In this document: one piece after another, positions 1 to 4,820 of the stretch | Layout of the letters: the number at the start of each line of letters is the position of its first letter | Numbering within the stretch: position 1 is the stretch's first letter | Source of the DNA: Planctomycetota bacterium | GTDB taxonomy: Bacteria > Planctomycetota > Planctomycetia > Planctomycetales > Planctomycetaceae | Assembly: GCA_003671275.1 (NCBI GenBank) | Contig: QWPB01000008.1 | Span: 1-37,215, forward strand | Direction: 5' to 3' | Length of the DNA: 37,215 bases | The notes under the pieces: generated by a model | What the model saw: only the letters and a program-made list of their open reading frames with translations | The model's database searches: none | What the model was told of the DNA's origin: nothing | Made by a program: the position numbers and the translations under genes

Positions 1-1
1 A

Positions 2-361
2 TCGACTTTTGGCTTGCCAGACTTGCGGGGGCGGACACCCATCGGAATGGGTGCCGGTCCCGGACTGTCCCCGCGTCAACTTGGTGAGTTGGATGGCGTG
101 GAAAATGTGACTCTTCTGCAGCCTCAGATGCCTGTGCATTCGCACTTTCTAATCGCATCAAGCCAAGGGGCTAACGAAAGTTCTCCCCAAGGGGCGGCCC
201 TGGCGGCCGCTGAGATCTGGGCGCAAAATTCCCCCACAGTGGCAACCAGCCCCGGATCAATTGGAATGTCGGGCGGCAACATGCCTCACGAGAACATGCA
301 ACCGTCTCTCGCGATCAACTGGTGTATTGCCTGCTCCGGATACTATCCGACTCGTCCGTAA
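2..361 (+). CDS. Phage tail collar / MdpB-like protein, C-terminal part (5' truncated)
   Basis: The frame is open from the left edge to the TAA at 359-361, so only the C-terminal 119 or so residues are seen. The visible start reads STFGLPDLRGRTPIG, then a GENVTL-like segment (GVENVTLLQPQMPVHSHF) and ends with PHENMQPSLAINWCIA...GYYPTR. These are the hallmarks of phage tail-collar (microcystin-dependent-protein-like) C-termini: the FGLPDLRGR strand, the QMPxHxH turn and the PHENxQPxLxxNW tail. Proteins of this family form fibre or collar parts of phage tails, but many bacterial chromosomes carry small tandem sets whose role is unknown. Whether this belongs to a prophage, a tailocin or a stand-alone set cannot be told because the left flank is missing. 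Nothing phage-like follows on the right. Confidence 0.85.
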   Translation, partial: STFGLPDLRGRTPIGMGAGPGLSPRQLGELDGVENVTLLQPQMPVHSHFLIASSQGANESSPQGAALAAAEIWAQNSPTVATSPGSIGMSGGNMPHENMQPSLAINWCIACSGYYPTRP

Positions 362-3436: not shown

Positions 3437-3586
3437 GTCGGGGGATTGTGGCGGAATGTGCCGCCGTGGCCGCGATGAGTCGGGTTTCTCTTGCTTCGAT
3501 ACGGGGCATCGTGAGATTCTGGACCGAGGTTGTCGGCGATTGTGCCGGTCTATCTCTGTTTCCCCATTCTTGATCTGGGCTCGATC

Positions 3587-4066
3587 ATGCCGCGAACCGC
3601 TTCACGGTCAGTTCTGTTACTCTTGACGGTGGCCATCTGGGGGATGGGGTGCCAGTCGGCACGGGTAATCTCCAAAGATGAATCGGGTGGAGTGATTTCC
3701 ATCCCGGCGAATACCGATGCATGGCCGTTTCGTTATCGGAGCAAGGCCAATGAACTATTGGCCCAGCATTGCCCCGAAGGTTACGTGATCGAACGCGAGG
3801 AAGAGGTAATCACCGGCCAGCGGACGATCGTGGAGCAGGACGAGCAGAATCGCACTCAGCAAATCAGTAAGCGAACCAGCTTGTCGATGGGCAACACCAC
3901 GACCACGGAGACCACCTCGGATGTTACGGAGTGGCGGATTCACTATCGGAAAAAGACAGCTGAGGATGACCGGGAGTCGTCCGTGCATGCTGCCAGCCTG
4001 GAAATCGAAGAGGGATCAGGAACGGGCGTAGAGGGCGCGGATTCGAGTGACGTGACTGAAAATTGA
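3587..4066 (+). CDS. Small lipoprotein, unknown function
   Basis: A 159-residue protein starting MPRTASRSVLLLLTVAIWGM with a lipobox ending G-C at C22 (WGMGC), so it should be lipidated and then cut by LspA. The mature part is polar and acidic, with a Thr-rich middle (MGNTTTTETTSDVTEWRIHY) and a disordered-looking acidic tail. The segment AWPFRYRSKANELLAQHCPEGYVIEREEEVITG looks like a small folded domain; no family was recognised with certainty. The ATG at 3587 is chosen because it gives a clean signal peptide; the frame is open upstream to 3530. It follows the ExbD gene by 150 bp on the same strand and could be part of the same envelope module. Confidence 0.75.
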   Translation: MPRTASRSVLLLLTVAIWGMGCQSARVISKDESGGVISIPANTDAWPFRYRSKANELLAQHCPEGYVIEREEEVITGQRTIVEQDEQNRTQQISKRTSLSMGNTTTTETTSDVTEWRIHYRKKTAEDDRESSVHAASLEIEEGSGTGVEGADSSDVTEN

Positions 4067-4263
4067 TGTGACAGGGGAGCAAACCGGGATACTTGGATTC
4101 GTGAGTATGGCAAATCCCTTGCAATTTCGGATCTTCTGGTCTGCGGCCCTTGATGTGGTCGCGCGGCCCCGGTAGTGTGGGGGTTGGTCACGCAGCGCGG
4201 TCACAGCAGGTCTGGTCTAAAATTCCCTGCCCCCGAGCGAATGAGCGGATCTGGAGGGTAGAA

Positions 4264-4650
4264 ATGTCGACTCAACGGGCCACTCTGGTGGCGGAAATTC
4301 TCTGGGAACTCAAGCGAGCCGACCGGTTTGCAACGCTGACATCAATCGCTCGTCGGGCCGGATTCAGTCCGGGGGCTCAGTGCCGAACGATTCTGGCCTG
4401 CATGAACACCATTCAGAAGGAATGGCCGCACTTGGAGTGGTGGCGGGCGCTCCACGATGATGGCGTGGTTGAGAAGAAATCAGTACAGGCGGAAGCCATG
4501 GAACGGCTGGGCATTGAATTGCGGGAAGACGGGGCTCACCTGACGGTGATTCTGGATGTCGCCCGGATGATGGCCTGGGACACCACGATGGATGGCAAGG
4601 CGATCAAGGGCAAGGCCGCAGCTGTGGTCGAACCATTGAAAACCGAGTAG
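4264..4650 (+). CDS. Alkyltransferase-like (ATL/MGMT DNA-binding-domain-like) protein
   Basis: The 128-residue product begins MSTQRATLVAEILWELKRAD at an ATG preceded by GGAGGGTA. The order of elements follows the C-terminal domain of O6-alkylguanine-DNA alkyltransferases and ATL proteins: helix (8-19), T-S-I-A-R-R-A-G (26-33, the helix-turn-helix lead, compare YGDVAKLAG in an ATL), R41 at the place of the arginine finger, then EWWRALHDDGVV (58-69) where the family has P-[CW]-H-R-V-V-x-x-D/H-G, and QAEAMERLGIEL (compare QRQALLAEGV). Trp59 stands at the reactive-Cys position, as in ATLs, and Trp60 replaces His. This predicts no alkyl transfer but possible damaged-base or plain DNA binding. The family link is inferred by eye and is moderate. 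Confidence 0.5.
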   Translation: MSTQRATLVAEILWELKRADRFATLTSIARRAGFSPGAQCRTILACMNTIQKEWPHLEWWRALHDDGVVEKKSVQAEAMERLGIELREDGAHLTVILDVARMMAWDTTMDGKAIKGKAAAVVEPLKTE

Positions 4651-4670: not shown

Positions 4671-4820
4671 TTTTGACGGCGTTTTGACTGTCAGTGTTTT
4701 GACGGATGGGACATCCTCGGAAAAACAAACACCTGCTCAAACAAAAAGCCGCCTTCTCCCGGGGAGAAGGCGGCTTTTGTTTTTGGCGGCGATTGCGTTG
4801 ACGGTTCGATTTTGACTGTC
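4671..4820. repeat. Four copies of TTTTGAC in the convergent intergenic region
   Basis: TTTTGAC occurs at 4671-4677, 4682-4688, 4697-4703 and 4810-4816; the second and fourth are part of a longer match, TTTTGACTGTC. The copies flank the terminator hairpin at 4744-4778. TTGAC resembles a -35 element but no matching -10 boxes were identified. Confidence 0.45.
4744..4778. terminator. Bidirectional intrinsic terminator
   Basis: A perfect 16-bp stem (4744-4759 with 4763-4778; core GCCGCCTTCTCC / GGAGAAGGCGGC) closes a 3-nt loop. It is flanked by A-runs on the left and T-runs on the right (TTTTGTTTTT), so it can terminate both the forward gene ending at 4650 and the reverse helicase gene ending at 4867. 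Confidence 0.92.

Follow-up and report, generated by a model that had tools for sequence, protein, structure and literature searches.

We wanted to know what is encoded by a short reading frame in a 37,215-nucleotide stretch of DNA from a bacterium of the Planctomycetaceae (hereafter the window, meaning the whole stretch). A sequence-only reading had seen in it a divergent alkyltransferase-like protein (ATL) with EWWR in place of the PCHR or PWHR of alkyltransferases (MGMT or AGT) and ATLs. ATLs are one known route by which a small base lesion is turned into a substrate for excision repair, and they are recognised by the PWHR motif of their pocket. A protein in which this motif is altered raises two questions: whether it is related to the ATLs at all, and what it might do.

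The gene and its surroundings

The frame has its ATG at 4264 and its stop codon ends at 4650 on the forward strand, giving a protein of 128 aa. The translation bears out the frame, the EWWR and the arginine at residue 41 that had been read from the letters (Table 1). Homologues were found in 96 of the 150 sampled genomes of the window's family, its own genome counted. Among 57 pairs of homologues more than 80% identical, 47 usable dN/dS ratios were obtained, with a median of 0.07 and a maximum of 0.22. The frame is a real gene under strong constraint.

On the 5' side lie a MotA/ExbB gene, an ExbD gene and, between ExbD and the ATL-like gene, a 178-aa frame (3530-4066, forward strand) for which no Pfam match was found at E <= 0.01. 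On the 3' side is a convergent gene for an SNF2-type helicase, and the terminator-like hairpin lies between the two. The terminator scan returned 2 sites of this kind against a mean of 1.1 in shuffled sequences, so that stem length alone makes the hairpin notable.

Table 1. Positions in the window of the ATL-like gene, its parts and the nearby signals, with examples of the partner gene at other loci
Feature	Position	Strand	Basis
QWWR-type ATL-like gene	4264..4650	+	ORF, homologues, AlphaFold2 model, motif tally, dN/dS
Ribosome-binding-like GGAGGG, 5 bases 5' of ATG	4253..4258	+	sequence pattern only
Helix 2, residues 25-32, first helix of presumed DNA-binding HTH	4336..4359	+	DSSP on model
Presumed recognition helix, residues 38-53	4375..4422	+	DSSP on model
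Arg41, arginine-finger equivalent	4384..4386	+	alignments
WPHLEWWR, family signature loop	4423..4446	+	alignments and motif tally
EWWR, residues 58-61, in place of PCHR/PWHR	4435-4446	+	alignments and motif tally
Trp105, aligns with the C-terminal Trp of ATLs	4576..4578	+	alignment
Intrinsic-terminator-like hairpin, 16 pairs and T tail	4744..4778	+	terminator scan
Partner gene, examples	L033:4237-5055, L048:4034-4468, L046:1354-1821	-	~145-aa protein

Kinship with alkyltransferase-like proteins

Scanned alone, the window protein gave no Pfam match at E <= 10, PF01035 included, and did not match TIGR00589 in the NCBIfam scan. An NCBIfam match to OmpL37 was discarded (E 0.044, 13.3 bits against a cut-off of 150). 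In a single-sequence search of the PDB, S. pombe Atl1 matched weakly but collinearly (E 0.56); the top match, the isoprenoid enzyme 5b8f (E 0.15), was rejected since it was absent from the profile search. When a profile of 43 relatives was run against the PDB, exactly two sequences were returned at E <= 10 and both are ATLs, those of V. parahaemolyticus (E 0.012) and S. pombe (Atl1, E 0.016), with W59-W60-R61 aligned on W-(F or H)-R. E-values of 0.01-0.02 give the kinship moderate support at the sequence level. Taken individually, 14 of the 43 members matched PF01035 at E <= 10 without reaching its curated cut-off; the best of them, at E 0.0034, is weaker than another protein (E 0.00012, 22.2 bits) that itself falls under the 27-bit cut-off of PF01035.

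The sequence-only reading had proposed a profile-profile comparison as a check. For this, the profile of the relatives, which we call the QWWR clade, was compared by hhalign with seven ATLs (that of E. coli and six planctomycete ones), six ATL-endonuclease V (EndoV) domains and eight AGT domains. The ATLs reached 94.5%, the ATL-EndoV domains 89.1% and the AGTs 34.6% (19 columns), and the reversed profile used as a control gave at most 1.4%. ATLs against AGTs reached 99.3% in the same test; on these profiles, the QWWR clade is far more remote from ATLs than ATLs are from AGTs. In a maximum-likelihood tree of 37 rows with a midpoint root, all 16 QWWR proteins used (of the 43) formed one clade with 100/100 support, on a stem of 2.84 changes per column. 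Because its placement rests on this long stem and on the midpoint root, we do not claim an exact sister group for the clade.

An AlphaFold2 model based on 23 sequences had a mean pLDDT of 87.1. Searched by Foldseek against the PDB, its only matches at E <= 1e-3 were the S. pombe ATL entries, and the overlay on S. pombe ATL gave a Z of 11.6 over 100 residues (rmsd 2.7, model 1..105 on 2..108, 21% identity in the structural alignment). The weaker AGT rows were outscored by an unrelated topoisomerase domain (Z 7.3, 63 residues). With a second model, built with another member as lead sequence (pLDDT 90.8), Foldseek returned nothing at E 1e-3, the best match being the Vibrio ATL at 1.5e-3. Here S. 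pombe ATL lay outside the first 50 rows, yet it came first after realignment with a Z of 12.5; ATLs were on top and unrelated rows stayed at Z 5.1 or less. A fold unlike the MGMT C-terminal domain, which had been named as fatal to the proposal, is thus not what the models give: in both, the 128-aa protein is predicted to take this fold, without the N-terminal domain. In the first model, the ATL rows extend to residue 105-106, whereas 24 of the 28 AGT rows stop at residue 84-88 and the other 4 at 96-98. Together with the terminal Trp common with ATLs, these rows indicate that the ATL-type C-terminal extension past the AGT domain is present.

To describe the motif, tallies were made over 97 distinct cores, 2 of 99 being left out (L082, a wrong-frame fragment, and L192, a copy interrupted by a stop or a change of frame). 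Where ATLs have the motif Pro, there is Q in 72 cores, H in 15, E in 9 and N in 1, and Pro in none. At the position of the reactive Cys (Trp59 in the window protein) there is W in 95 and F in 2, never Cys, and at that of the motif His, W in 92, F in 3 and Y in 2, never His; the motif Arg (R61) is present in all 97. Read as whole strings, the cores are QWWR (68), HWWR (14), EWWR (7), EFWR (2), QWFR (2), QWYR (2), NWWR (1) and HWFR (1), and the usual PWHRV motif of ATLs is absent from all of them. The replacement of PCHR/PWHR noticed earlier is therefore real, but EWWR is not the usual form in the family; in the aligned cores it is one of several outcomes of a change of PWHR that runs through the clade, with Trp and Arg retained. 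Before the motif, W54 is found in 96, H56 in 97 and L57 in 97 of the 97 cores, and the Trp105 column holds W in 93 of the 94 cores having a residue there.

The earlier emphasis on Pro and His being replaced together stood as regards the combination; loss of His alone turned out not to be unusual among ATL relatives. It is seen in the V. parahaemolyticus ATL (PWFR), in one planctomycete short ATL (PWQR) and in two ATL-EndoV fusions (PWYR, PWFR). Among the short ATLs compared, loss of Pro was found in the QWWR clade only; the EndoV fusions L128 and L144 likewise have no Pro, though C and H are retained there (FCHR, VCHR). Uniqueness of the motif as such was rejected, while Pro loss and the combination remain distinctive, and among the sequences compared it is the combined loss that sets the QWWR clade apart. 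Because PWHRV is absent, we file the protein as an ATL-like variant and not as a canonical ATL, although the motif is usual rather than universal, as the Vibrio ATL without the His illustrates. That protein is grouped with the ATLs in a passage of a review (PMC10779285).

Alignments by HMMER, hhalign and MAFFT agreed on the residue mapping first proposed, with Trp on the reactive Cys and R41 on the arginine finger. In Atl1, Arg39, Tyr25 and Trp56 are the finger, flipping and pocket residues, and their pairing with residues of the window protein comes from the alignments. The finger is present in the window protein, and in the family its position holds R in 76, K in 20 and Q in 1 of 97 cores, that is, a basic residue in 96 of 97; the tree implies 8 changes at this position. 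The base-flipping residue of ATLs is Tyr, or Phe in some species; the corresponding position is Leu25 in the window protein, Y or F in 82 of 97 cores and non-aromatic in 15. The first helix is nearly invariant (R5, A6, A10, E11, K17) in a family-specific way that is not seen in the canonical ATLs compared.

From profile, profile-profile and predicted-structure comparison, we conclude that the window protein is an ATL homologue, and that the resemblance to ATLs is more than chance. The suggestion of an ATL-like protein has held up in homology and in predicted fold. A search for literature on ATLs or alkyltransferases in Planctomycetes found none among open-licence papers, which is weak evidence of novelty.

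Distribution, partner gene and other genes of the family

All 22 named contig loci with a homologue were titled Planctomycetota or a subgroup of it, in a scan that detects close relatives only. Profile searches were positive in 41 of 248 genomes at class level and in 14 of 392 at phylum level, every one in the window's family. Both searches missed members of the Pirellulales, and the class search was redone with a query from Bythopirellula (Lacipirellulaceae, order Pirellulales). It was positive in 76 of 397 genomes. All but one of these belong to the window's family (75), and the lone match in another family is 100% identical to the Bythopirellula query. A mobile-element origin was rejected, since the plasmids searched gave no match to the ATL-like gene at E <= 1e-5 and none of the 31 stretches of viral contigs that fit a pattern was confirmed as a relative of the protein. 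At four loci (L017, L019, L024, L042), the ATL-like domain is followed by a long Asp/Glu-rich C-terminal tail, absent from the window protein.

A second gene recurs beside the QWWR gene. It encodes a ~145-aa protein with the consensus YxxHGVxFxYPxxW... and was found in 136 of the 150 family genomes, mostly in one copy. Both genes are present in 91 genomes, on the same contig in 64 and adjacent in 54; all 54 adjacent pairs are on diverging strands with gaps of 118-711 bases, and the head-to-head pair occurs in 27 of the 45 genera having the QWWR gene. In 10 of the 64 same-contig genomes the two are not adjacent, and in the window's genome (G000) the partner is on a separate contig (C1:76818-77237, reverse strand). 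The partner is also found in 45 of the 54 genomes without the QWWR gene. These cases, together with the non-adjacent ones, indicate that neither gene depends on the pairing. When 23 loci were clustered, the divergent partner gene appeared in 10 of them; a 20-locus group corresponded to reverse-strand frames over or beside the QWWR gene, and apart from the partner gene, these frames and the QWWR gene itself, no group was present in more than 4 of the 23 loci. Where the upstream region is common to both genes, as in many relatives, co-regulation is likely, and the head-to-head layout is equally compatible with a co-regulated pair and with one gene regulating the other. As for the partner itself, no solved relative was found in the PDB (best E 1.1) and no usable match in NCBIfam; Pfam gave a weak PsbP-like hint in 2 of 9 members (E 0.032), by which it is perhaps PsbP-like. 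Separately, a ~220-aa protein is encoded directly 3' of the QWWR gene at three loci (L034:5370-6101, L036:3532-4197, L041:5384-6052 (+)) and a related one farther away at a fourth (L046:5047-6189); this neighbour has no Pfam family over the cut-off.

Other AGT/ATL-type proteins are common in the family. PF01035 matches, with AGTs, short ATLs and fusions pooled, were found in 142 of the 150 genomes, the best 30 loci all being PCHR, and a match pooled in the same way coexists with the QWWR gene in 94 of 96 genomes. The window's genome has genes for a Cys-bearing PCHR AGT, UvrA and Mfd. With the E. coli ATL as query, nine genomes gave a match at E 2e-16 or less. Eight belong to genus g42; the ninth is G028, where a PWHR domain forms part of a longer frame that also has EndoV-like sequence. 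For the weaker matches, 30 loci were inspected. Short ATLs are present in 8 of 8 sampled g42 genomes (seven with PWHR, one with PWQR; one has a disturbed C-terminus), and among the 150 family genomes these 8 include none with the QWWR gene. This is suggestive of replacement between the short ATL and the QWWR type in g42, in one genus and as at most one event. On sequence, canonical short ATLs were recognised in only 8 of the 150 sampled family genomes.

Some further proteins were seen along the way. In the same family, a bacterial AGT/ATL-like domain is fused to endonuclease V at L125, L127, L128, L130, L135, L137, L143 and L144; Pfam recognised PF01035 and PF04493 in L125 and L137, and the remaining six were recognised by eye. 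Their motifs vary (CPCHR, CFCHR, CVCHR, GPWYR, IPWFR), and such ATL/AGT-EndoV fusions are mentioned for archaea in part of the review cited above (PMC10779285). The window's genome also has two copies of a ~150-160-aa ATL-like protein with PWWR or PYWR, one at L002:1186-1674 (+), which is G000 C157:11618-12103, and the other at G000 C113:925-1362. This protein was found in 7 of 61 sampled genomes, and the C157 copy has no NCBIfam match and is under the Pfam cut-off. In the same genome, a 1422-aa frame (C134:1269-5303, reverse strand) aligns with the UvrA profile over 2-427, 426-924 and then 2-258 again, as if it were a UvrA with a partial second copy.

Possible roles and comparison with known systems

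ATLs are described in parts of a review (PMC10779285) as flipping O6-alkylguanines into a large hydrophobic pocket without chemistry, and as bending DNA and recruiting UvrA/UvrC. Because its predicted fold, finger and Trp are those of ATLs, the most likely role of the QWWR protein, to which we would give close to an even chance, is that of a non-enzymatic lesion sensor for excision repair. Its HTH would bind the DNA minor groove, and its Arg/Lys finger would flip an alkylated base, either O6-alkylguanine or a related but bulkier one, into a pocket whose walls are Trp59, Trp60 and perhaps Trp105. Transfer of the alkyl group would be impossible there, and with its two aromatic residues the site would be well suited to an adduct that is bulky or of another shape. 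Bent DNA and persistent binding would then flag the lesion for UvrA-led excision repair, alongside the separate Cys-bearing AGT of the genome. Nanomolar binding to O6-alkylguanine DNA without repair activity and interaction with UvrA/UvrC are among the criteria for an ATL. Several findings speak against the sensor role: the finger is Lys in 20 cores and Gln in 1, 15 of 97 cores have a non-aromatic flipping residue, both flanking residues of PWHR are lost, and the sole conserved neighbour is no recognised repair gene and stands in a layout that is also typical where a regulator faces its target.

Given the rebuilt pocket, the R/K finger and the head-to-head partner, there is room for other readings. 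The protein could be a repurposed ATL that keeps the fold as a winged-helix binder of DNA or of a partner and has lost base flipping, for example a local regulator of the head-to-head neighbour or a chromosome-associated protein. This is the main rival, though less likely than the sensor role, and both had been put forward in the sequence-only reading. The same ~145-aa gene lies head-to-head in 54 of the 91 genomes with both, the finger is exchanged between R, K and Q, the flipping residue varies, and both the family-specific first helix and the long stem fit such a change. However, few parts of the protein are as conserved as the putative pocket (W59 in 95, an aromatic residue at 60 in 97 and R61 in 97 of 97), which counts against repurposing since a plain DNA-binder would not need a pocket; the ATL C-terminal extension and its Trp are also retained, and the partner is found without the QWWR gene or away from it, as in the window's genome. 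Flipping could instead be kept with a Trp-Trp/Gln site tuned to a base or adduct other than O6-alkylguanine, which we consider distinctly improbable. The complete replacement of P and H in 97 sequences, with W, R and the overall predicted fold kept, is consistent with it, and a PF01035 protein coexists in 94 of 96 QWWR genomes, so that the usual lesion is otherwise covered; against it, no candidate lesion or modification enzyme was found beside the gene, and the Vibrio ATL (PWFR) tolerates the loss of the His. A bolder version, which we regard as unlikely, would make the protein an ATL offshoot with a pocket rebuilt on two adjacent aromatics and Gln/His/Glu, either reading a base other than O6-alkylguanine or a bulky adduct, or acting as a lesion-responsive regulator of the head-to-head gene.

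The two remaining explanations concern the kinship itself and catalysis. HTH folds are common, the single-sequence match to Atl1 ranked under an unrelated one and unrelated HTH rows reached Z 7.3, as might be expected of an unrelated winged-helix protein resembling ATLs by chance. This is nevertheless highly improbable, given that two models and the profile and profile-profile tests put ATLs first, that the second model separates them from unrelated rows (12.5 vs 5.1 or less) and that the reversed-profile controls fail. An active DNA alkyltransferase would share the predicted fold superfamily and is still barely conceivable, because all 97 sequences lack both the reactive Cys and the His next to it; the E. 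coli ATL stays inactive even when its Cys is restored, as stated in a passage of PMC10779285. Judged from these residues, catalysis is very unlikely. A conserved clade in which the predicted fold and the Trp persist without Pro and His shows what the pocket can do without, and it provides a ready comparison set for what sets lesion choice. It also gives a name to a protein so far unannotated in a majority of the sampled genomes of one planctomycete family, and ties this ATL-like protein to an equally uncharacterised head-to-head partner.

Set beside known systems, the window protein has the C-terminal domain fold of MGMT/AGT (human 1yfh, Z 8.5 on the predicted model; C192 in its own genome) and differs from them in the reactive Cys and His, the N-terminal domain and the ATL-type C-terminal extension, which the alkyltransferases are without; the AGT pair of a reactive Cys in PCHR and a catalytic His is missing in 97 of 97 cores. 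Like the E. coli ATL (YbaZ), which is within the ATL profile matched at 94.5%, it is short and has the C-terminal Trp in a common column, whereas YbaZ retains PWHRV and scores above the TIGR00589 cut-off, which the window protein does not match. The V. parahaemolyticus ATL (PDB 2kif), its best profile match, has also lost the motif His, but to Phe rather than to the Trp of the QWWR clade, and retains the Pro. The P[YW]WR proteins of its own genome share with the clade the Trp that replaces the motif His; unlike it, they retain Pro and have about 150-160 aa with an N-terminal extension, and hhalign related the two at 64% in the C-terminal part only. Compared with S. pombe Atl1 (PDB 3gva, 3gx4), the motif is EWWR (mostly QWWR in relatives) against PWHR, the Tyr position is Leu, and the window protein differs from Atl1 and other ATLs in having extra residues ahead of the recognition helix and of the loop. 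With Atl1 it has in common the single-domain MGMT C-terminal fold, as predicted, the Trp at the Cys position and the Arg finger.
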